64,000 bases of DNA from positions 13,561,001 through 13,625,000 of the forward strand of contig NC_092575.1 in NCBI RefSeq assembly GCF_037975245.1. The letters run 5' to 3'. Positions within the stretch are counted from its first letter, which is position 1, and every line of letters starts with the position of its first letter. The DNA is from Apostichopus japonicus (lineage: Eukaryota > Echinodermata > Holothuroidea > Aspidochirotida > Stichopodidae). Made by a program: the position numbers and the translations under genes. Shown piece by piece: positions 7,001-63,240 of the stretch. The notes under the pieces were generated by a model. That model saw only the letters and a program-made list of their open reading frames with translations, ran no database searches and was not told the DNA's origin.

Positions 7001-10000
7001 ACAAACAAGAGATGTGAAATGGATCAAAGTATTGGTTCAGCTCTGAATAGTTAATTATGGGACATTTGGATCATTATTGCATTTGTGAATCTGAGAAGAT
7101 TTGGCTTCATTGTTTTTAGTTTGTTGCCTGAAAGTTGACCATCTGTGATCATTCCATCATACTGAAAACATTTAACCTTAATTCTATATCTAACCAAGGC
7201 CAGTAAAGTTCATATAAAATACAACATACCGTATGAAACGATTCACATTCCTACCACATTAGTCATTGTTACTGTATCATTGTCCAGTTGAACAATGAAA
7301 CAATTACTAGAAATCACCCAATCACACTCAATATTTTCCAACGCAAGTGACCAAACAGGACCTGATTATCTTTGGTATAGTACAACTTTGTCACACTAGA
7401 TGCCCACTGTCCTCAACCCCTCCCCCTCCCCACCACATCGTCACTTTCCTCTCAACCACCTCCCTCCTCCTCCTCCTCCTCCTCCTCCATCATACCTGCT
7501 TGAGGACCTTCTTCTAACTTTCCCTGAGTTGATAACCTCAATAGTAACTCTAGTTGAGCTAAGTAAGGTCCTCTCAATGCCTTTCCCGTTTTCTCTCTCA
7601 CTTTCTCTTCTTCATTTGCTATCCTCTCCGAGATAAAAGCGGCCATCTCGGGGAGGTCATAATCAGTGGTCTGGGATTCCTCTTTGTTAGTATTATTGCA
7701 GTCTTCATGAGATGTAGCATTCTCTTCACTACCACAAAAACACAGTAAAAATAACAACATTTCCTGTTTCCAGTTATAGAAATACTTTATGAAATTATAT
7801 GTGGCAATATCTTTGACTTCCAAGTTCGGTGAAATAACAACATTCAAACAGATCAAATTTCATGATGAGATGAGATTATTACAGGGCGTGGCGATGTTTA
7901 AAAACTTGAAAACTCTGAGACAAATGGTTCAAACCACTTTATAGCGAAAAACTGATTTGCTCTTTTCAATTTCTAATCTGTACAAATTCCCAGTCAGTTT
8001 CTTTTGTTCATTTGCTTGGGAGAGTTTAATAGAAACAGTTTAAAGAAGTGTTTACGGTTTGAATCTCAACAGCCAATGTCATGGCAATTTCTGACATTTT
8101 CTTCCCTTCACCCAAGATAAACAACAAAGATGTCATTGATTTCATCCTCAGATATGTTGTTCTTGAGAAATTTAAGGAAACTGAATGCCATTTTACCATC
8201 AAATTCAGTGTTATTAATTCCTTAGGTCATCTTTAAACATGTGCTTTCATCAAACAGTTACCGCCAAGAACAGTTGCATGTAAAGGCAATCTCTATACAG
8301 AGAATGACAATGAGATAGCCTGTAATTTTGGATAAGAGTCTGCATGCCAATTACTGGTATTGTACAAGATCGGAAAAACTTTACCCAATTTCTTTTTTTT
8401 TGGCAAACAAAGAGTTGGAAAAACTTCTTTGCATGGCTTTCCAGTTCAAGTGTTTATCAATTCAACTACAGTATAGTTATACTGTGTAATTCCCCACCCA
8501 ACACCTCTCCCCTTCTCTGTTTTCATAGCACCCAACAAATGGTGTTGGGTGGGGAATTACACCTCTACCCTTCTGTTTTCATAGCACCCAACAAATGGTC
8601 ACATGTTATCCAAAGTTTTGTTTCAGATTGAGATAAAATCTGAGCTTCATTTCTCCAAAGACACGCTGATAGTAATATATCGATGATTGCTTTTCATAGC
8701 AGAATGGAAGGCCATAAATTGGTCACTCTCTAAATGTAATAAAAGGTTCAACTGAAAGCAAATAAACAAGAAACTCTGAAACACATGCCCTGCACAGAAT
8801 CCAACCCTCCTTAAATCTTTATATGGGTGAGAGTGAAAGACAAACCTCCCGGTATCAGGTGGCTTCCATCCATTTTCCCGAAGTTTGAACCCTGAAGTTA
8901 GATAACGAGTGTAATACAACCAGTTGTCTGGGCTGTGTAAATGGACAGAATACAGTAACAGAATTATTATCAATCACCTCTTCACTAGCATAACAATACA
9001 TGATAAAATATATTTAATGATACATATATATAAAGGTTATCTACATATTCACTCTGGTCAAAATACTCTTTAAGCCAATCAAAATAACTGAAGACTGTCA
9101 TGAGTGCCCAATCAGTGGCTTTGTTGTATAACCAGGAGATGTGCATAGAACTAACCAAATAGAGTGTGGGAGGGGGAGCATCAGGGGGTTACAACAAAGT
9201 GGCTCACAGACCAGGGAAAAACATGGAAGGGATGGGGAAAATATGTGATAAAGAATAGTGTATTTTCATATGATACTTCAGGAGAAATGAAGAGTGCAAA
9301 CGGGGACAGTGATATTATTGTCCCTGTTCGATCTGGATCTGGGTGCCTCTGGGGGTGGTGATGCTCAAATGTGCAATTTAAATGATTAAATTTTCCTCAT
9401 GTTTTGGTGGCTTCATATCACAAGCCACAACAAAGAAAATTAATGTGATTTATTTTAGTGTTTTATATCATTCAATGTGCATGAAAGCAGCACCTGTCAA
9501 AAGTGAAGACAAATTCTAACATTTTGAACAATTGAAAGGAAAAAGTTCAAAAGAATGATTTTAAGAGTGAAAGATGCTTTGAAGATATCAGAAATTATAA
9601 AAAAAAAACCTCTTTGTTGAGGGGGTTTGTTCATCTAATATAAATGTTGGAGGTATTGTATTGAAATGAATGAAAAAATAAAAAAAAGTATGAAAGAAAA
9701 ACCAAAATTGAGTAATACATTTGCCAATGTGTGGAGAGGAAAAAGAAAACTATTTAACCTTATAAACACCTCTAAACACCAATAATGCAGCACTTTCAAT
9801 CGTTGGGGTGGGGTGGGATGGGGCATGGGGTGGGGGTGGGGGAGGTGTTTCATATATATCATGGGGGAGAGAGAAGCAAAGAGAACCTACAGGAAACCAA
9901 GATCAATGCAAATCAAAATATTTAATTTTTAATTTTTTGGCCCTGTCAGAATTTGTAAAATTGGAAAGAAACACACAACATGCTGACCTTTTGATAAGCA

Positions 10001-13000
10001 TTTCCCTGAAGGCTTGATAAGCTTTGTCCCATTTCTGCATCTTAAAGAAAAGTTCCGCTATCCTTTCATCACGACTTGGAATCTGGGACTTCAATAAAGC
10101 TGAAAGGATGATGACAAGAAAAAGGAAGATACTAGCTTTTGCTTTTAAATTGTTGCACAATGAAGTTCTGTGTTATCTGTCCAAAGTCATAAACTGTCCT
10201 TTGTACAATTTAGCGTTATATTGTAACGAAACAAAGTGAATCGACTTCCTCTTTTCATCCCTAGAACAAAATATAAGACTCCTTGTGTTTGGATGTACCC
10301 TTTGGAATGAATTTCCTGCCTCTATACATTGACAGGCTGGGCTTGTTCAAGTCTAAGCTTAAAACACACTTATTTTGTATTTGCTTTAAGTTAGTAGCAC
10401 TTTGTTTCATGTTATTGTTAAGTGTGTTACAAATGCTTTACAAATGTAACATTTTTTTTAAAAATGGTGATCAATTCTGAGGCTTGTCCGTCAAATGAAT
10501 ATCCAAAGAAAGGTGATGTAAGACTTCCTCTCCTTTCACCAGACACATCAAGTCACACTTGATATCGTAACACCCAAACATGCTGTCAAGTACAAAGGTG
10601 CTACCAAAATGACAAAATGTTTGCTTCAAAATTTTGAAATGGTTTAATTCTACCAAGGGACAGTCACAGAATGATCAATGTGATCATGAGTTAAACAGTC
10701 TACAGAATAGCTTACAATAAAGTGCTGTGAATGGATCTTTGCAACTTTAATACTCCAAAACAAATTTGCCCATTCTTGATTTTGTAAATATGTTGAAAGA
10801 ATAAGGACAGAATAAACCATCTCCAAATCAGACTTTTCACCATTGTATTCGAACATTATACTCATGGATTGTTTTATTATATGCAATCACCTCTCCCCCC
10901 CCTCCTCCCTCTTACCATGTAATCTTGGCAGCATATACCACAGTACCCTGAATACTTACACTGGCCTAGCATACCCCCCCTCCCTCTCTCTTACCATAAA
11001 ATCTTGGCATGTATACCATACTACCCTGAATACTTACACTGGCCTAGATTACCCCACCCCCCCTCCTCCCTCTTACCATAAAATCTTGGCATGTATACCA
11101 TACTACCCTGAATACTTACACTGGCCTAGAGTACCCCCCCCCCCCCCATCCTCCCTCTTACCATATAATCTTGGCATGTATACCATACTACCCTGAATAC
11201 TTACACTGGCCTAGAGTACCCCCCCCCCCATCCTCCCTCTTACCATATAATCTTGGCATGTATACCATACTACCCTGAATACTTACACTGGCCTAGAGTA
11301 CCCCCCCCCCATCCCGCTCACCATATAATCTTGGCATGTATACCATACTACCCTGAATACTTACACTGGCCTAGAGTACCCCCCCATCCTCCCTCTCACC
11401 ATATAATCTTGGCATGTATACCATACTACCCTGAATACTTACACTGGCCTAGAGTACCCCCCCATCCTCCCTCTCACCATATAATCTTGGCATGTATACC
11501 ATACTACCCTGAATACTTACACTGGCCTAGAGTACCCCCCCATCCTCCCTCTCACCATATAATCTTGGCATGTATACCATACTACCCTGAATACTTACAC
11601 TGGCCTAGAGTACCCCCCCATCCTCCCTCTCACCATATAATCTTGGCATGTATACCATACTACCCTGAATACTTACACTGGCCTAGAGTACCCCCCCTCT
11701 CCCTCTTACCATATAATCTTGGCATGTATACCATACTACCCTGAATACTTACACTGGCCTAGAGTACCCCCCCATCCTCCCTCTCACCATATAATCTTGG
11801 CATGTATACCATACTACCCTGAATACTTACACTGGCCTAGAGTACCCCCCTTCCCTCTCTCTTACCATATAATCTTGGCATGTATACCATACTACCCTGA
11901 ATACTTACACTGGCCTAGAGTACCCCCCCCCCCCATCCCGCTCACCATATAATCTTGGCATGTATACCATACTACCCTGAATACTTACACTGGCCTAGAG
12001 TACCCCCCCCTCTCCCTCTTACCATATAATCTTGGCATGTATACCATACTACTCTGAATACTTACACTGGCCTAGAGTACCCCCCCCCCCCTCATCCCGC
12101 TCACCATATAATCTTGGCATGTATATACTACCCTAAATACTTACACTGGCCTAGAGTATCCCCCCCCCCCTCACCCTCTCTCTCTTACCATATAATCTTG
12201 GCATGTATACCATACTACCCTGAATACTTACACTTGCCTAGAGTACCCCCAACCACCTCCAGAGCCTTCTCATGTTTCCCAAGGAGATCCAGAATCATCA
12301 GATAGAGGTTCACTTCGGATTCTCCTTCCAGTTTCTCTTCTTTAATCATCTTCTCCACCATCCTCTCGGCTAAAGGCAACAGCATCTTCTGTCCCAAACT
12401 GTTGTCAGAGTTCAAAGCCTGCAAAAGCCAGGTCCAGATCAGAGAACAAATGCAATACATACAGTATTCCAAATTAAATATTTTCCAACCAAGTCCCTAT
12501 GAAAAGAATCAACACTTACAGTAGTTGAATCCCTCAAGTCATTACTAGACGCTTCATGAAAACCAAGGGACAAACTTTGGTCGTAACAAGTAAAGAAGAT
12601 CTGACCAATTTTGAAAGATATTTAAAAATGTTCAAAACAATCTTTTTGAGTGTGATAGCACTGACAAATCAATTTAATTTGAACAAATTTATTGCAGATG
12701 AAGATATCTATGATACTATCAGCTGCAAATTGACCGGAATCATATTATTGATATATCATTCCGGTAGCTGTAATTGCTTGCTTGATAAAAGTTTTATTCA
12801 TCTATAGGTCAAAACCGTCTCCTCATTATATTTTGTACTCTTAATTTTTTGGGGGTTAAACTCGCTGCTAACGAGAGATTGAATGCAAAATGCAAAAACA
12901 AAGAATGACGTACCTGCATGACTGCACTTATCACTCCCCAGAAATAGAAAGCATTCTTGGGAACCAGCTTGTAGAGTGACATTGCCGTCTGTAAAATGAA

Positions 13001-16000: not shown

Positions 16001-17716
16001 AAAGAGATGTTGCAAACAATTTAGGTTGTTATCCTTATTTGCAACAGTAGGGCTGGTTGAACTTGAAAATTTAAATCAAATTCAACTATACTGGTGTACC
16101 TGTACATCAAATGCAAAATGTTGTATCAAAATCCCAATTGACATAAGATATTGTATAGAAGTGTTTCTTGCTTTCTTTTATTTCTTCCAAAATAGTAAAG
16201 AAAAACTGGTAAAAAAGACAGTAGAGACAAATATATGTGCATTACTTCAAGTACAATAAATTACATAAATTTCTTAAGAACATTGGATATAGAGGAACCT
16301 TTTGAAGCTAAATTTCATGTTTTTTTTATTGTTTTTTTAAAGGCAAAACATTTAGTCAATTTAGAAACCTGGAACTTAAACTAAAATATACCAGTTGGAA
16401 CTGCTTTTGTGAAAATGAAACCAGAAAAATATCATTTATTGCCATTAAATATCCTTTGTCACCATATATATATTAATAGCTCAATCGTGTACCAATTTGT
16501 TACAACAACAACAAAGATTCTAACATTATTTCCTCAAACTGAAACTTAAAGAAGAATTGGTACAGACCAACATATTTTTGTAACGAAGTGGATATATAGC
16601 CGTCAGACGGTTCCCGATTCCAGTTTACTATTTAGCCGTAACTTCCGTCTGACATGCGCAGTTATCAATTTTCCGATTTTTTTTTTATTTTATTTATTTT
16701 ATTTTTTATTTATTTTTCTGTTTTTTTTCTTTTTCGTTTTTTTTTTCCATTTTTTTTTTTTTTTTTTGGGTATGTTTTGAAGTGACGGCTAAATAGTAAA
16801 CTGGAATCGGGAACCGTCTGACGGCTATATATCCACTGCCTTTTTGTAATGTACAGTATTGTCTATTTCTTCTAACAATAAAATCACTTAAAGTATATCC
16901 ATCAAAAAAATAACTGATATAAAATGTAATATTTTCAGCAAAAGCCAAATAATGAGGCATGGCCCTAGTTTAGCATTATTATTTACTTTCTTATCCCTAA
17001 TGTTAGAATTCAACATTTTGCTTTATCTTTAAGCAGCTTCACGTTTCCTCTTTGCCAGCCTAGTCTAGCTGCTCGATTGCAGACTGTTACTTATGTCTAA
17101 GTTGGTGTTATTTTATTGTAGCTCACATTCCAGTGATCATAACATTTGTGCCTGCATTGCAAAATATAACAGCATGGCTTAGGAACATTTATTGTGGTAC
17201 AGTACACACACACATGTGTAGGCTAGGGCTAAGTGTAAGACCTAACTGTGACATCAAGTTACACACCGAGTAGGATATGACCCAGCTACTTTGAGCGAGA
17301 AATACCAATTTCTGAAGAGTAAAGCTAAGTGCTCTGGAAAATGTCCTGTCACATAGAGATTTGCTCAAGTTTGAAGAAAAATACCAGTGAAACTTGTTTG
17401 CAGTATGTAAAACAAAACAGCACTAGGTTGGTAGTATACATGCACCGTGTAATAGTACCAGTACAACTGTAAATATGTTACAGTTTGATACTACTACTAT
17501 AAGCCAGTGTTGTTTAATTGTGTTAGGCTAGTGTTATCAGCACACGGATGAACAAAAAAGTATGCTTGACAAGAGCAAATTCCATTTTACAAAATAACTC
17601 GGGAGGGAAACTGTAATCGGTTGAAATATTCAGTAACATTATAAAGCTGGAACCTTACCATAAATCGGTTTTAATCTTCTTTCCGTCACAGCGTCTTCAT
17701 GATTGTGCGAAGCCAT
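1045..17716 (-). CDS. NAA25: NatB auxiliary subunit NAA25, N-terminal 663 codons, 16 exons; continues past left edge
   Basis: NAA25 is the non-catalytic subunit of NatB. It wraps the catalytic NAA20 and holds it at ribosomes to acetylate nascent Met-Asp/Glu/Asn/Gln N-termini. Exons in transcription order: 17716-17659, 15997-15912, 15010-14872, 14014-13899, 12988-12914, 12418-12232, 10099-9988, 8932-8846, 7728-7496, 6867-6686, 5710-5485, 4609-4499, 3989-3920, 2999-2900, 2232-2081, 1100-1045. Every junction has GT/AG and the phases join without a stop (1990 nt). Landmarks shared with human NAA25 from memory: RRLKPIYD near the start, ADKLLKKHRDLHCAKVLKA, LPLAERMVEKM, ALRGPYLAQLELL, DKTCCFSDL, LDIKHMQQDTLG, EYMIASYRFGTYEKIPEF. 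Its helical repeats are TPR-like. Human NAA25 has 972 residues, so about a third is missing. I found no convincing exon at 1-1044. Exons 6 and 10 end in tandem arrays. Confidence 0.93.
1140..1580. repeat. Imperfect ~220-bp tandem duplication in a NAA25 intron
   Basis: Shared blocks include GAGGATTACATCAAC, AGGGACAGAAAGCCAG, TTCCTTCTGTTTTA and CTGCACATCA, at about 1192-1290 and 1396-1560. Confidence 0.75.
6225..6685. repeat. Diverged ~105-115 bp tandem repeats next to the NAA25 exon 10 donor
   Basis: Three to four imperfect units each contain a GTGCAGACTA-like block, AAGTTCTGTCACTTCTGTAC, and GAATATTCAT. Their boundaries (6325, 6431, about 6540, 6643) resemble the true exon end at 6679-6703 (ACTTACCGAAGTTGCATAGA on the plus strand). 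At least two copies keep a GTAAGT donor on the NAA25 strand. Confidence 0.75.
8484..8600. repeat. 22-bp perfect hairpin overlapping a 33-bp direct repeat, NAA25 intron 8
   Basis: The arms at 8484-8505 and 8541-8562 are exact inverses (GTGTAATTCCCCACCCAACA...). The sequence CTGTTTTCATAGCACCCAAC occurs twice, within 8511-8543 and 8568-8600. The structure looks like a local template-switch duplication. Confidence 0.85.
10885..12250. repeat. About 17-copy, 76-83 bp tandem array copying the NAA25 exon 6 splice donor
   Basis: In the NAA25 sense each unit runs from a G-run through GTACTCTAGGCCAGT, then GTAAGTATTCAGGG, a middle part with ATACATGCCAAG, and ends near TATATGGTAAGAGGG. The most exon-proximal copy (12232-12250) is coding sequence and contains the functional donor AAGT|GTAAGT. 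I counted 17 GCCTAG landmarks from 10963 to 12237. Length variation comes mainly from the poly-C tract, seen as poly-G in the transcript. The open plus-strand frames here are by-products of the repeat. Confidence 0.95.
16584..16840. mobile_element. Foldback MITE with perfect 52-bp terminal inverted repeats, NAA25 intron 1
   Basis: The arms at 16588-16639 and 16785-16836 are exact inverted copies (GTGGATATATAGCCGTCAGA ... ). The loop is dominated by a T-rich tract at about 16677-16767. A 9-bp direct repeat, TTTTTGTAA (16575-16583 and 16841-16849), flanks the element. A 9-bp duplication with long inverted repeats is typical of Mutator-like elements, but the superfamily call is tentative. Confidence 0.85.
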
Positions 17717-27000: not shown

Positions 27001-30000
27001 TGGCTTTCTTCTCACATTACTTTACAACAATAACCCCTGTTGATCTATATCTTGTCACACGCACACACCCAAGTGTGCATAAATGAAACGGTCGCTCCCC
27101 AACCACCACATCTATGTGTCCCATTGGACTTTCCATAGGGTGCAGCCACAAACACAGCTACATTAACAAGTTACCTCACTGATACATCTATGTAAACCTG
27201 TGTGAAGAGAGGCAGGCAATGGAGATTAAGTACCTTGCACAAAGCCATAATGTCATTACCAGGCCAGGGCAGGAATTCCATCCTTAATACCAAGTCCATT
27301 GCCTTAGCCTCCATTACCAGAAATATGGCAACGATGGTGAAGAAGTCCACTTCCAACATTGGAGCGCACTCCATGTTATCACTTTCCACCCCTCCCCCTC
27401 CCCCACTTTCCTCAACACCTCCCTTACTTTCCGTGTTCCTTCATAAGTTATTAAGATGGTTACATGGATCATATGCAATACTCCAATTCATATATGCTAC
27501 CACCTAAAACTAGGTCAAAACTACGAAATACCTACTGTTTTATTCTAACCTTTAATAACGTGAAGATGACTACACAGCTGCTACCTACCTTTCCCACACC
27601 CCTACTCATAATGTCACCGAGACGGCGCTCAATGAAGCTGAACAAGGTGGTTGTATGTTTTAGCCCATTTATTCACACGCGTGGTTTGAACAAGACCACG
27701 GTGAAAACTAGAAAGTAAAGATATCAATACATCAATATACAAACATTGGTGAAATAAACACATGAATTGAACAAATCAATAATAACATAATAATGCATTA
27801 TATTTCTTCTTATAAAACAATGCACAAAAAGGAAGAAGTATAACAAATAACATTTGGTAACATGAAACAATACATAGAGAAAGATTGGCGACAATTACAT
27901 TCTTGATAATTAACTTACAATCGTTACCGGGCAAAACCAACAGCACGACAAACTGCGGTGTACAGGGGTTTACAGGGATTAACGGCGGTTTTCTGGGGTT
28001 TACGGCGGCTTTCTGGGGTTAACGGCAGCTTTCTGGAGAACGTACAGAACACCAACAAAGTAATAACCTCTGGCGATATATTCTACTCCAGATACTCTTA
28101 CAAATAAGCAAACAACAAATACACAGTACAAAGGCAATAATAAATAACAGGCACGAGCATGCAGCAACATCACATTAAAGGCAAATATCTATAATGCGAT
28201 ATTAAAAGAGATATACAGTTACAATATCAAGCCCCTTAATACTTATATGAAACAATCAGAATACTTACATACTAAGGAACAGTGCTACATGAACACATGC
28301 GACGCCTCTCTGAGCCAGGAGAGGAATGAAGCATGTGCACTTCAAAATACGCAAGTATACATCGATTACGTAATTGTGCATCGATTACATAAGTATGCAA
28401 ATCGAGGTGAATATGAAAGGCAACTAGAAAATGGGCAGTATTGACCTCTGCCCGACCTCGAACAAGCGGAAATTTCCATCTGGTCACGCTAAGCAAATAG
28501 CACACATCGGCAACGATGACACTCCCCCAACTGGAATACGTCATATTCAAGTATAACAATACCTACAATACCTAAACCACCTAATCGATGTACAATAAAT
28601 TCCATAACAGCTTTAGCAATCAAAATTGTGACATAAAGCTTCTTTACCAAATAAACAACCATAAAGCCTGACACACCTGACAGCTCAATCAGGAAGATAA
28701 AAAATAAACAACTATATAACATGGAATTTCAACGATAATGCTTGCAAACACTTAAGTGCCGATTCAAGTAAAACAATCCTCTTGACCAACGGCCTTCCCT
28801 TAGTAACCCAAAAAACCTTCCTTACAATACTTAGCACCCACTCAATACCAACATGGGCGATACTGTGTGCGTCCTTAACAATAGTTTAAACAATAGGATG
28901 TTTATCAGATATTATACACGGGTGTTTGCTGTCAAACTCTTTCAAGCGGCCACCTACCCTGAGAAACCCTTCACCATCTAGAAACGGAGTTAATGTTTTG
29001 AGGGAACTAGATGCTCTGACAGCCTTACCCTGACTTAACCCTTCTAACTCAGAACAGAAACTAGTAGACTGACTCTTACGGAGGAGGATATCTCCTGCAC
29101 GACGAACTTCTTGGACAGATAATCTGCCCAAAGGTGTCTGCCCCTTAAAAAATCGCACAAGACGCAAGAGCCATGCTAAACCTCTCTTCATTTTAAACCA
29201 TGAAGAGTAATGATTCATTAGCCTACATAATGGCTCATCTGAATCTCCGACATCACTTAACCCAGGAGGGGACACATGACCAGTAACAGTCGTATAACCC
29301 ACAGTGACGTCCGTCCCTTTGACTTCAGGATCGTCATCCGTTAAGACGAGCGAATCAAGTTTAGCAGTTTGCCAATCGTTCTTGTACCGACCCAATTTGT
29401 CAGGACCGTTAAACCATTTACTACTATTAAACTTTGAGAAGGAACAATTTCTAGAAACTAGATCAGCTGGGTTAGCTTTAGTTTCAGTATGGAACCACTG
29501 TTGCGGGTCACTGAACTCCCTGATAAGTCTAACCCTATTGCCAACGAAAACATGGAATCTTCTGCTATCATTGTGAATGTACTTCAAGACAACTTCTGAG
29601 TCTGTCCAAAAATACGACTCGGCAAATTCAAGAGCTAACTCCCTTCTCAACAGAGAATCAACCTTTACGGCTATTACAGCAGCTTGCAGCTCTAAACGAG
29701 GTATAGTACGTAGCTTTAAAGGAGCAACTTTACTCTTACTCATGACTAACTGTACATGAATTTCCCCTTTCCTATTTACACAACGTACATAACAGCAACA
29801 GCCATAACCTTTAGAGCTAGCATCTGAAAAATGGTGAAGTTCGATGAATGCATCATCAAAGGAACAAGGCTTTATACAACAAGGTACCCTCAAACGACTA
29901 ACAGAAGACAACGACTGAGCCCAGGTGTCCCAAGCCCTTACAATATCAGGGGGTATCTCTTCATCCCACGACAACCCACGGGCTGTAGCTTCATGGAAAA

Positions 30001-33000
30001 GGAGCTTGCTTGAAAGGACTACAGGACTTATCAAGCCTAGCGGATCGAAAATTGACGAAACTATACTAAGCATTCTCCTCCTGGTTAACAAGCCACCAAA
30101 ATCTTTCTCCAGTGCGAAGAAGAACTCATCGCGAGAAACCATCCACTTTATACCTAAAGCCCTGCTTTCACTACTAGTACCAAAATCTAGAACTTCCTTA
30201 GCCCTACATTCCACGGACACTTCAGCTAGCAATCTGAAATCATTGACTACAAACTTAGTTAACTTAAACCCTCCACTTTTCAGGGCCTTGGGGATTTCCC
30301 TAATAATGATCTCAGCATCTGATTTACTCGACACAGAACTAAGACAATCATCTACATAAAACGATCTTTCAACCGCATACTTAACAAGCGGAATCACACT
30401 CGGCAGATCAGTAATTGTACGCCTGAGAGCATAGGCGGAGCTAGCCGCACACCACACCTCCTCCAAACAAATGTGACGTCATACGAAGGTATCTTAATTT
30501 ACCATTAATGTACCATAGGAATCGTAGGGCATCTCTATCCCTAGCTGGGATCCTAACTTGATTATACATAGCTTCAATGTCTGCTTGAACTGCTATACTA
30601 TGTTGCCGAAATCTCAACAAGACCGGCAGAAGCTTATTAATCATGTCGGGACCCTGCATACAACGATCATTCAAAGACTTGCCTTTGAAGTTACTAGCGC
30701 AATCGAAAACTACCCTTAGTTTGTCTGGTTTCTTCTCTGACACTACAGCATGATGGGGTAAATACCATATCCTGTCTACCATGAACAACTCTGAATCTGG
30801 TACTGCCTCTGCATAACAGTTATCTACAAGTTTCACAATCTCAGCGTTATACCTATCATAAGAGCCGTTCCTAACAAGTTTCTTGTACAACGAGTCTAAC
30901 CTAGTTTTGGCAACAACAAAATTATTTGGGAGGGTCTCCGACCTGTCCCTCCAAGGAATGGGAAGTTCATGATGACCATCCACTTTCCTGTGCTCTTTGT
31001 CCCACAAAGATATCACCAACTTGTCCTCGTATGACGATGACGGAAGATCCAAACCTGCATTCTCTATTTCCCACAAACGAGAAACATCAGTCTGAATAGT
31101 CGAAGTAGATATAAAATTTGAAATTATCTTACGACTCGGGAGGCTAATGGGAGATTGTCCATTAAGACCCCAACCAAACATGTAACGTACCGCAAAGAGC
31201 TCCCCTGGACCACCCCGCCTAACCTCCAACGGCACAAGTGCTTCAGAATTATCTTGACCTACGAGAATGTCTACTGTGATATCAGTACTTTGATAAGCAG
31301 GTAGGGGACCGATACCACTAAGATGGGAATAACATTCCAGATCGACCATAGAATTCTTAACTGGTATTTCGTCAACTACGTAAACGGCAGATAATTTTAA
31401 GATTTCACCCGATTTAGAAGACAAGGACAGGTCTACCATCTCGGATTGCTGAATACCTGACGAGTTCAACGTTCTAAGCTCAAATTGATAAGAGTTACCA
31501 GTGATTCCTAATTGGTTGACCAATGCACGGGAACAAAAGGAATTACTGGATGCACTATCTAACAATACAAATGCGTCACACAAACTGTTCACGGTGGCCC
31601 GAACTAAAGGCATATGTGTACTTTTGCTACGAGAGAAGCTAGCATTAGAAACCTCAATATCGGGTGAAGAATTTACAGTATTATCATCACAATGAATGTA
31701 CATGGTATGTTTCCTACCACAACCTCGCACACTACAAACAGAGCGCTTGCCACAATCATTAGTGTTATGAGAGGCACGAAGGCAGTTATGACACAACTTA
31801 TGCTTAATTACAACAGTCAATCTCTCTCTAGGGCGCAATTGTTTAAACTTATCACAATGCCACAGACGGTGTGATTGTTCACATAGTACACAAGGAGGTT
31901 CAGCCCTAGCGTACATTCCAGGTATTGCTGCCTGGGCACCTTCACCAGTACACGTATTGGACTTAGACAAAGAGATAGAATAGCTGCTAGAAGTACTCCT
32001 TTGTTCACGTTTACACTTATCTGAACGCTTGAGATACACGTCGCCATAAACTGGGTCATTTACCTCACTGGCGATTTCACCTGCGAATTCAATGAATTCT
32101 TTAAACCCTGGATAACAACCATCGGCCCGTTTGGCCTTCAATGCAAATTTTTTCCATCTCAACTGCACATAGTTAGGAAACCTGGCAACTATTTCGATTA
32201 AGACTGCTTGAGAATCAACCTCCTTCAAAGTTTTTAACTCTGAAAGTACAAGGAATGCATTTTGCATATCATCAGCTAACTGTTGTATGTCTTGCGGCAG
32301 TCTAACTTGTTTACCAAATCTTAACTCGCGTATTAAACGCTCAGTGACTAGGTGCGAGTTTCCAAACCGGTTTTCTAATATGGAAATGGCTTTAGCATAA
32401 CCGCTACTACCTCCAACTAACTGGCAACTCCTAATGGCCTCTTTAGCAGAGCCCGACGTATACTGCATTAACCTAGACAACTTTAAATCGTTGTCGTCAC
32501 ATACCCTATCAACATTGGCCTCGAAAGCCCTGATGAATTGATGATAATGTAATGGGTTACCATGAAATATTTGCAGCTCTACCTTAGGTAAATGCAATAA
32601 ATGTAGAAATTCTTTACGAGATAAACCTGCATTTGGATTATCCTTAAGGGATTGATCCTCACGTTTTACTTCAGCAGAATTCAATGCATCTTTAACTAGA
32701 TTTAAAGCGGAAATGTAATCTTTCTGCTTGTCACAGAAATAGTCGTCGCTCTCGTCAACATCCTCCTCATCAGTAAGCGTCTCGTGGTACTTGTCGTGAG
32801 CCAACGTAAACACTTCGAAAAGATCTTTCAATAAAATTACATGACTGTTAATGTCCACGTTACCTTCCGCGATATACTGCCTGACATGATTAATCTGTGT
32901 CGTAACAGCCCTCTTAGCAGAAGTCCTGGGAGTCTTCAGGTCTTCCATGAGTCAGCAGGCTGACGACGAGTACATTGGTGCTACGGGAATCAGGCACGTG

Positions 33001-34981
33001 GTGCACTATTTCTGTCACTGGAATACGATGGTGAGCTTTCATACGACAGGAATTGGTAGGCTTATAGACGACAGGAATAGGTGAATAAGAAGCGACGGCC
33101 AGATACCGGACGGCGGAGGATATGCAGGACTTCCGGTTGTCGATACCCAACGATTTTTTCACTGTCACCGAGACGGCGCTCGATGAAGCTGAACAAGGTG
33201 GTTGTATGTTTTAGCCCATTTATTCACACGCGTGGTTTGAACAAGACCACGGTGAAAACTAGAAAGTAAAGATATCAATACATCAATATACAAACATTGG
33301 TGAAATAAACACATGAATTGAACAAATCAATAATAACATAATAATGCATTATATTTCTTCTTATAAAACAATGCACAAAAAGGAAGAAGTATAACAAATA
33401 ACATTTGGTAACATGAAACAATACATAGAGAAAGATTGGCGACAATTACATTCTTGATAATTAACTTACAATCGTTACCGGGCAAAACCAACAGCACGAC
33501 AAACTGCGGTGTACAGGGGTTTACAGGGATTAACGGCGGCTTTCTGGGGTTTACGGCGGCTTTCTGGGGTTAACGGCGGCTTTCTGGAGAACGTACAGAA
33601 CACCAACAAAGTAATAACCTCTGGCGATATATTCTACTCCAGATACTCTTACAAATAAGCAAACAACAAATACACAGTACAAAGGCAATAATAAATAACA
33701 GGCACGAGCATGCAGCAACATCACATTAAAGGCAAATATCTATAATGCGATATTAAAAGAGATATACAATTACAATATCAAGCCCCTTAATACTTATATG
33801 AAACAATCAGAATACTTACATACTAAGGAACAGTGCTACATGAACACATGCGACGCCTCTCTGAGCCAGGAGAGGAATGAAGCATGTGCACTTCACAATA
33901 CGCAAGTATACATCGATTACGTAATTGTGCATCGATTACATAAGTATGCAAATCGAGGTGAATATGAAAGGCAACTAGAAAATGGGCAGTATTGACCTCT
34001 GCCCGACCTCGAACAAGCGGAAATTTCCATCTGGTCACGCTAAGCAAATAGCACACATCGGCAACGATGACACATAATATTTAGTGATGGGAAGCACACT
34101 ATTCTCAGCCTTGCTGAGCGGACTGAAGAACTTTGCAAAAGTGGTTTGGATAACACTGTTCTTCAGCCCTTAGAGTTGCTTATTAAATGTCTGCGTTTGT
34201 TAAGTTATACCCCTAATCGTTGAAATATAGCCAGTTTTTAGCAGCCCTACCCAACCACCCATCTTCCTATAACCCAGCCCCGTTTCTTCCTGTATTGTGT
34301 ATTTACAGCTTGGGACTTTACGTTGAGATTTTCCTTTAAAAGCTTCATTTTCCTGACAAACATAAGCAAACTTTTCTTGAAGTTTTATACATAAGTTGTG
34401 ACACAAATGGAATAAAGGAACATTTCTTTTTTTGGTGGTCAAAAGCTTTACATGCAGGGAAATTATAGTCACAAAGTGAGGTTTCTTAATTTCTTTTCTT
34501 TTGATAGTTTGGACACAACCAACACAAAAGCCGTGCAGGGCTTACAGAGGGTAGAAAACAGCTCTGATTCCTTGGATGTAGGCATGGATGAAGATGGGGA
34601 TGCCGTGGAGGAGAGCAGTGAAGAGGCGGAATTCGATACTAGTGACACAGTAGGAGCATGGACTGAAACAGAGGTAAAAATAAGATGGATTGAAACAGAG
34701 GTGAAAATAATATGGACTTAAACAGAGGTGAAAATAATATGGACTTAAACAGAGGTGAAAATATAAGGACTGAAACAGAGGTAAAAATAGTATGGACTGA
34801 AACAGGTAAAAATAGTATGGACTTAAACAGAGGTGAAAATAATACAGACTGAAACAGCTTATTTCAGAGGAACTATATCAAAATGAGACTATATATATAT
34901 ATATATGAGTTGTCTGATGATAGCTCAACGCGTGAAACTCTGAGTAACAACTACTAGTGTTCCACTAGTCTCAACTAGTCT

Positions 34982-35884: not shown

Positions 35885-36922
35885 CAATTCCAGATGTTTG
35901 ATAGTACCTGGACTTTGTGGTACCAACCAGATATGTGCGAATGTTTGATAGTACCTGGACTCTGTAGTACCAACCAGATATGTGCAAATGTTTGATACTA
36001 CCTGGACTCTGTAGTACCAACCATATATGTATAAATGTTTGATAGTACCTGGACTCTGTAGTACCAACCAGATATGTGCGAATGTTTGATAGTACCTGGA
36101 CTCTGTAGTACCAACCAGATATGTGCAAATGTTTGATAGTACCTGGACTCTGTAGTACCAACCAGATATGTGCAAATGTTTGATAATACCTGTACTCTGT
36201 AGTACCAACCAGATATGTGCAAATGTTTGATAGTACCTGGACTCCCAAGTACCAACCAGATATGTAAAAATGCTTGATAGTAACTGGACTCCCAAGTACC
36301 AAGCAAATATGTGCAAATGTTTGATAGTACCTGGACTCCCTAGTACCAACCAGATATGTGTAAATGTTTGATAGTACCTGGACTCCCTAGTACCAACCAG
36401 ATATGTGTAAATGTTTGATAGTACCCAGACTTTGTAAGTTTGTAGTCCAGATATGTGCAAATGTTTGATAGTACCTGTACTCTGTAGTACCAACCAGATA
36501 TTTGCAAATGTTTGATAGTACCTGGACTCTGTAGTACCAACCAGATATGCACACATGTTTGATAGTACCTGGACTCTGTAGTACCAACCAGATATGTGCA
36601 AATGTTTGATAGTACCTGGACTCTGTAGTACCAACCAGATATGCACGCATGTTTGATAGTACCTGGACTTTGTAGTACCAACCAGATATGTGCAAATGTT
36701 TGATAGTACCCAGACTCTGTAGTACCAACCAGATATGCACACATGTTTGATAGTACCTGGACTCTGTAGTACCAACCAGATATGCACAAATGTTTGATAG
36801 TACCTGGACTCCGTAGTATCAACCAGATATGTGTAAATGCTTGATAGTACCCAGACTCTGTAGTACCAACCAGATATGTGCAAATGTTTGATAGTACCTG
36901 GACTCTGTAGTACCAACCAGAT
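35885..36922. repeat. 47-bp minisatellite, about 22 copies
   Basis: The plus-strand unit is TGTGCAAATGTTTGATAGTA followed by CCTGGACTCTGTAGTACCAA and CCAGATA. Units vary at a few positions (CCCAGACT, CTCCCTAG, GCACACATG). The minus strand stays open for long distances in all frames, but the resulting peptides only reflect the repeat. The array lies in the spacer between the convergent genes. Confidence 0.95.
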
Positions 36923-62649: not shown

Positions 62650-63240
62650 AAGCGTAGAAGGGACATTGCATTGACGAGTTACCAACTTGACAAAACGACA
62701 ATTATCTGCAAATTGACGAGTTGACGAGATGGTAACGTGACAAAATTCAGAAAATTGACGTTTTGACGAGATAACGGATCTCGTCAATGCATCAATTTTC
62801 TGCAAATTGACGAGTTGCACACTTACTACCATCTCGACAAGTTGACAAAATTCAGAAAATTGACGTATTGACGAGTTAACGGATCTCGTCAATGCATCAA
62901 TTTTCTGCATATTGATGAGTTGCACACTTACTACCATCTCGACAAGTTGACAAAATTCAGAAAATTGACGTTTTGACGAGTTAACGGATCTCGTCAATGC
63001 ATCAATTTTCTGCAAATTGACGAGTTGCACACTTACTACCATCTCGACAAAATGACAAAATGACAAAATTCAGAAAATTGACGTTTTGACGAGATAACGG
63101 ATCTCGTCAATGCATCAATTTTCTGCAAATTGACGAGTTGCACACTTACTACCATCTCGACAAGATGACAAAATTCAGAAAATTGATGTATTGACGAGAT
63201 CCGTTATCTCGTCAAAACGTCAATTTTCTGAAAATTGACG
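62650..63240. repeat. 105-bp satellite of hairpin units, 4-5 copies
   Basis: Each unit contains CAGAAAATTGA and its exact inverse TCAATTTTCTG. Inside those arms lie GACGAGA and TCTCGTC. The unit then has TTGACGAGTTGCACACTTAC and ACCATCTCGACAAG. Spacing of the ATCAATTTTC landmark is 105, 105 and 113 bp. The right end (63176-63232) is a near-perfect 55-bp palindrome that includes an inverted copy. A minus-strand frame (62539-63066) exists only because 105 is a multiple of three. Confidence 0.9.

Follow-up and report, generated by a model that had tools for sequence, protein, structure and literature searches.

The window analysed here is a stretch of 64,000 nucleotides from the sea cucumber Apostichopus japonicus (C15:13561001-13625000 of the genome searched, which comprises 671,581,487 bases in 35 contigs). 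It contains the gene NAA25, which lies on the minus strand and codes for the auxiliary subunit of the NatB N-terminal acetyltransferase. A genome-wide search with the Pfam family NatB_MDM20 gives four matches from five scored candidates, and all four fall within the window. NAA25 (start-codon exon at 17716) and an ANAPC7-like gene on the plus strand (about 18814 onward) appear to be arranged head to head, with about 1 kb between them. The plus-strand exon near 18.8 kb is presumably part of the ANAPC7-like gene, and a 48-residue piece near 24.5 kb matches ANAPC7 in the PDB (E 1.6e-8).

The window also holds several repeats that are separate from NAA25. Two direct repeats of 300 nt (27612-27911 and 33163-33462) show 100% identity at a distance of 5551 bases, and a 530-aa frame free of stops lies between them (28886-30478). 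The element at 27612-33462 looks like a recently inserted LTR retroelement, which we take to be of the BEL/Pao type. TRF further reports a 47-bp tandem array at 35894-36922 (21.8 copies, 89% matches) and a 105-bp array at 62738-63240 (4.7 copies), whose unit carries inverted-looking CTCGTCAA/TTGACGAG stretches. Elsewhere in the assembly, contig C29 (31,219 bp) matches COX1 at two places, 14.7-16.1 kb and 30.8-31.2 kb, and seems to be a concatenated mitochondrial contig, in addition to the mitochondrial contig C35 (16,099 bp). The COX1 encoded on C35 retains its expected asparagines only if AAA is translated as Asn, which is how the echinoderm code reads it.

Exon 6 of NAA25 is the sixth coding exon, with four exons read by eye between it and the start-codon exon. 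It is 187 nt long (12232-12418, minus strand), and both its frame and its match to the human protein continue into exon 7. Intron 6 spans 2132 nt (10100-12231, minus strand). Exon 7 follows at 9988-10099 (minus strand) after the acceptor TTTCAG/CTTTATTG, where the slash marks the splice junction; its own donor at 9987 was chosen by eye. On the other side of exon 6, intron 5 measures 495 nt if the exon 5 donor, also picked by eye, is right. The junction between exons 6 and 7 is in phase 1, with GGC AAG T/GTAAGT joined to TTTCAG/CT TTA. The product of the two exons matches human NAA25 (PDB 6vp9, 8g0l, 7stx) with E 1.9e-22, and the alignment crosses the junction with a gap of one residue. The 5' splice site taken as real is therefore AGT/GTAAGTAT at 12224-12234 (minus strand); from the frame and the human match, we infer that the intron starts at 12231.

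A minisatellite, or VNTR, consists of head-to-tail units of roughly 10-100 bp. Such an array lies across the end of exon 6. TRF places it at 10895-12250 with a period of 78, 17.1 copies, 92% matches and a score of 2090, and inspection of the units on the minus strand gives 17 of them, each 76-87 bp long, over 1.36 kb. The motif GTAAGTATT occurs 17 times in the array at spacings of 76-87 nt. An earlier note on this DNA had described a tandem array with copied donors, starting 19 bases before the end of exon 6. This observation is confirmed and proves somewhat larger than first described. The unit range of 76-83 bp given then was too narrow. The proposed starting point is correct: repeat unit 1 opens with the final 19 bases of the exon (12250-12232).

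The unit pattern, with up to three mismatches allowed, has 15 matches in the whole genome. All 15 lie inside this array, and the backwards control has none. The array thus appears to be a single locus in the genome. It is apparently also young, judging by the near-identity of its units described below. The donor motif itself is no rarity in tandem repeats, and the idea that it might be was rejected. Three occurrences of GTAAGTAT at gaps of 55-85 have at least 371 and at least 413 placements on the two strands, compared with at least 240 and at least 238 for the backwards control (totals of at least 784 versus at least 478), although many of the placements among the matches listed overlap inside a few arrays. 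Since series of this kind are common, the unusual part of the NAA25 array is its inclusion of a real exon end. A separate array of roughly 2.6 kb on contig C1 (9743702-9746304), with 18-bp units of the type GTAAGTATATGGACAATG, is full of donor-like motifs.

Each unit of the NAA25 array carries a copy of the real donor, here called type A. The core from -3 to +8 (AGT/GTAAGTAT) is identical at all 17 type-A donors, and so is their computed pairing with U1 (-8.3 kcal/mol). In the computed duplex the T at -1 is unpaired, while the A and G before it are paired. The 16 further type-A donors have their first intron bases at 12144, 12065, 11988, 11908, 11830, 11752, 11676, 11598, 11520, 11442, 11364, 11286, 11204, 11119, 11037 and 10959 (minus strand). 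Sequence and computed U1 pairing also reveal a second donor-like site in every unit (type B, 17/17), which reads ATG/GTAAG or ATG/GTGAG, pairs at -8.0 to -8.1 kcal/mol and recurs from 12188 down to 10915 (minus strand). For comparison, the values for six other NAA25 donors, chosen by eye, lie between -5.4 and -11.1 kcal/mol. With an extra GTGAG at 12174 in unit 1, the array holds 35 GTRAG motifs. This count is used here rather than one of 67 strong GT sites, in which adjacent GTs that share a duplex are counted separately.

The spliceosome had previously been thought to face about 17 equal donors in a row. The cores are indeed identical, but that figure covers only half of the approximately 34 donor-like sites. 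The earlier note had also suggested that a small difference, CAAGT in the exon versus CCAGT in the copies, might steer the choice. As far as the donor core is concerned this candidate is rejected, since the difference sits at -4, outside the core, and leaves the U1 pairing the same in 17 of 17 cases. An effect of the -4 base through bound proteins is still conceivable.

What would happen if a later donor were used can be read from the sequence. Beyond the real donor the frame runs TGT AAG TAT TCA GGG TAG, and the in-frame TAG at 12215-12217 (minus strand) is entered by any transcript spliced downstream of it. When all 34 donors are translated, exon 6 joined to exon 7 from the first donor reads through without a stop. 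The 33 downstream choices (16 GTAAGTATT and 17 ATG/GTRAG) all end at this TAG, codon 68 from the start of exon 6. Because the stop lies ahead of all copies, the copies are unable to add protein sequence, and the earlier expectation, that use of a later donor would introduce in-frame or frame-shifting copies, is not supported. The copies can only add stop-containing transcripts. Nonsense-mediated decay is an established pathway for such transcripts, and should remove them here.

A published rule bears on the choice among equal donors. For near-equal donors with flanking introns longer than 250 nt, Carranza and colleagues report in human that the donor nearest across the exon is preferred (PMC9225289). 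In that study, minigenes with two identical donors and flanking introns of 365 nt used the upstream donor exclusively, and the upstream donor was likewise preferred in 725 equal-strength human events with long flanking introns; all events before strength matching showed about 60% preference for the downstream donor (PMC9225289). The minigenes resemble exon 6 in having identical donors in a row behind one exon and flanking introns above 250 nt, but they carry two engineered donors, whereas NAA25 has approximately 34 natural donor-like sites. With introns of 495 and 2132 nt, both above the limit, the rule suggests that the exon-nearest donor would win, to the extent that human data on two competing donors extend to so many. 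The earlier view that correct use must rely on the exon itself comes close to this cross-exon proximity rule, even though its alternative, the CAAGT versus CCAGT difference, fails for the core. The array is thus most likely quiet, as exon definition predicts use of the first donor.

Every unit contains a G-run on the sense strand, as the earlier note had proposed. One long run per unit is found over 10895-12176 (minus strand), and the longest run after each of the 17 type-A donors has 6-14 G. Six G-quadruplex-type motifs lie between 12176 and 11052. The GC skew of the array is 0.58, and the mean G4Hunter score is 0.59-1.12 in 100-nt bins from 12200 to 10901. G-runs on the exon side of a donor repress it. 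Upstream of the first donor there is only a run of 5 G, and a run of 11 G starts at +62; each of the other 16 type-A donors is preceded by 6-14 G as well. This pattern may be a further aid to the first donor. An example for support from the downstream side is AKR1A1, where an HNRNPH site with a G-quadruplex downstream of the exon is described in a preprint as supporting inclusion of exon 7 (PMC13001508).

RNA structure that hides the decoys is not supported as an explanation. With G-quadruplex folding excluded, opening the first donor costs 2.95 kcal/mol in 150-nt windows, a middling value beside the 1.26-5.38 kcal/mol of the 16 other type-A donors, and 4.5 in 300-nt windows, the highest of the 17. 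The neighbouring type-B site at 12188 opens more easily than the first donor (1.31 in 150-nt and 0.54 in 300-nt windows). Another G-rich repeat, a minus-strand GGA repeat at 7463-7488, lies a few bases past a putative NAA25 donor, CAAGCAG/GTATGATGG, near 7495; it would be the second such repeat at a donor of this gene.

Variation among the units was compared in a 64-nt core that begins a little before the donor and extends across the second donor. In this core 11 of the 17 units differ at one site at most. Units 4, 6 and 8-12 share one sequence and units 5, 7, 13 and 14 another, and a single site separates the group of seven from the group of four. Unit 2 has a 3-nt deletion, and unit 17, the last, is the most diverged, with 8-12 differences. 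Such a pattern is consistent with recent expansion of the array and divergence at its far edge. The exonic unit is one site away from the group of units 5, 7, 13 and 14. Since unit 17 is the most diverged and the exonic unit stands near the bulk, a simple order of age from the exon outward fails unless there was later exchange or recent expansion. Thus, either the array expanded recently from the exonic unit, or the exonic unit has exchanged sequence with the array.

The copied piece is coding, with G-T-L-G here and G-K-L-G at the same place in human NAA25, which argues that copying went from exon to intron. The 5-G run is found in the exonic copy alone; before the other 16 donors the run has 6-14 G. 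This is what would be expected if the reading frame constrains the exon copy. The joins between units lie in G-runs, which suggests slippage or exchange at these places. A second founding breakpoint is possible, as the array is immediately preceded in exon 6 by GAGGTGGTTG and immediately followed at its far end by GAGGTGATTG. Because the units are nearly identical in one assembly, copy-number variation between individuals is likely.

These observations lead to the reading favoured here, which is held with reasonable but not full confidence: the array is a young minisatellite that grew from the end of exon 6, its first donor is mostly used, and misuse leads to an early stop and decay. In this model, the 3' end of exon 6 together with the beginning of intron 6 underwent tandem duplication, probably through slippage or unequal exchange at G-runs, and later expansion brought the array to 17 units. 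Exon 6 would be recognised across the exon, so that among equals the donor nearest the acceptor wins. The long G-runs downstream, with only 5 G upstream, may further favour this donor. Misuse of any later donor would give the same early stop and be followed by nonsense-mediated decay. Contraction between units should keep the junction of exon and donor, provided that the frame of the exon's G-run is preserved, and changes in length would therefore be largely tolerated. The layout of the sequence, the frame, the stop and the equality of the donor cores can be read directly from the DNA, whereas donor use, decay, an origin at G-runs, tolerance of length change and polymorphism are what the model infers.

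Another model is that the array acts on the amount of NAA25. A measurable share of transcripts would use the 33 decoys, meet the same stop and decay, such that array length tunes the amount of NAA25. The equal U1 pairing computed at the 17 type-A sites, the nearly equal pairing at the 17 type-B sites and the uniform premature stop are all compatible with this, and there is a precedent in TERT, where a G-rich intronic VNTR is reported to shift splicing, with nonsense-mediated decay (PMC11830802). The equal-donor minigenes used only the upstream donor, however (PMC9225289), and from the coordinates decoy-extended exons would measure 230 to about 1500 nt. Such tuning is doubtful.

A related proposal, no more probable, is that the exon end and its donor take part in the concerted evolution of the minisatellite. 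Unequal exchange and conversion would keep rewriting the junction from 16 backups, making the donor self-renewing, and array length would set a low, tunable level of stop-containing NAA25 transcripts. Conversion by 13 of the 16 copies (units 3-15) would change one codon (Lys to Gln) and the length of the G-run only.

A purely intronic array, with the true donor upstream in the exon, is very unlikely. A donor such as GGG/GTACTC at 12246 is compatible with the frame. Its computed U1 pairing is weaker (-5.3 versus -8.3), yet two of the six other NAA25 donors are similar (-5.4 and -5.6). Its use would also lose the stretch that aligns with human G-K-L-G-E-K.

An assembly artefact, or an array of the wrong size, is slightly less probable still. 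Homopolymer runs are error-prone in sequencing. The C-runs here reach 14, and the exact lengths of the G-runs may be off. Nevertheless, if the assembly is the published one of A. japonicus, it was built from HiFi reads with a mean length of 14.7 kb, ten times that of the array (PMC10344927). The scattered differences among the units also speak against an artefact, which is unlikely.

U1 telescripting, the U1-dependent shielding of transcripts from premature polyadenylation, is an equally improbable role for the many U1 sites in intron 6: the intron does contain polyadenylation signals (AATAAA once, ATTAAA twice), all of them beyond the array at 10648-10878, but so few signals would not require 34 sites, and an origin by duplication accounts for the sites without selection.

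Besides the equal-donor minigenes, the array can be compared with two known systems. The first is intron gain by tandem duplication, in which, as described, duplication across an intron-exon boundary copies splice signals into the transcript. The NAA25 array likewise includes a duplicated segment that spans an exon-intron boundary, with an overlap of 19 nt with exon 6. The known duplication spans the boundary between an intron and the exon that follows it, and makes a new intron; in NAA25 the boundary is that from exon to intron, there are 16 extra copies with donors, and no new intron is expected. Inspection by eye of the sense strand of the units saw no acceptor in the form of a pyrimidine tract followed by AG, and recursive splicing or nested introns were set aside for the same reason.

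The second is VNTR6-1 of TERT, an intronic minisatellite described as having a G-rich sense strand and G-quadruplex motifs (PMC11830802), features that the NAA25 array shares. VNTR6-1 is reported to lie about 3.5 kb upstream of exon 7, and deletion was used to test what it does (PMC11830802), whereas the NAA25 array includes an exon end with its real donor. Among the titles and abstract openings listed from a limited open-access literature, none describes a minisatellite that takes in a working donor together with the end of its exon, which is weak evidence of absence.

The NAA25 array is a natural counterpart of a classic splicing experiment, in which one exon of a NatB acetyltransferase gene is followed by approximately 34 near-equal donor-like sites. 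The rule for choice among identical donors thereby becomes testable, and natural length alleles, if they exist, would provide a dose series. If it is true that the array rewrites the end of the exon, this would be a case in which a splice junction is subject to repeat turnover. The array also suggests that a minisatellite can grow from a coding exon and leave it intact, since all additional copies are placed after the donor.
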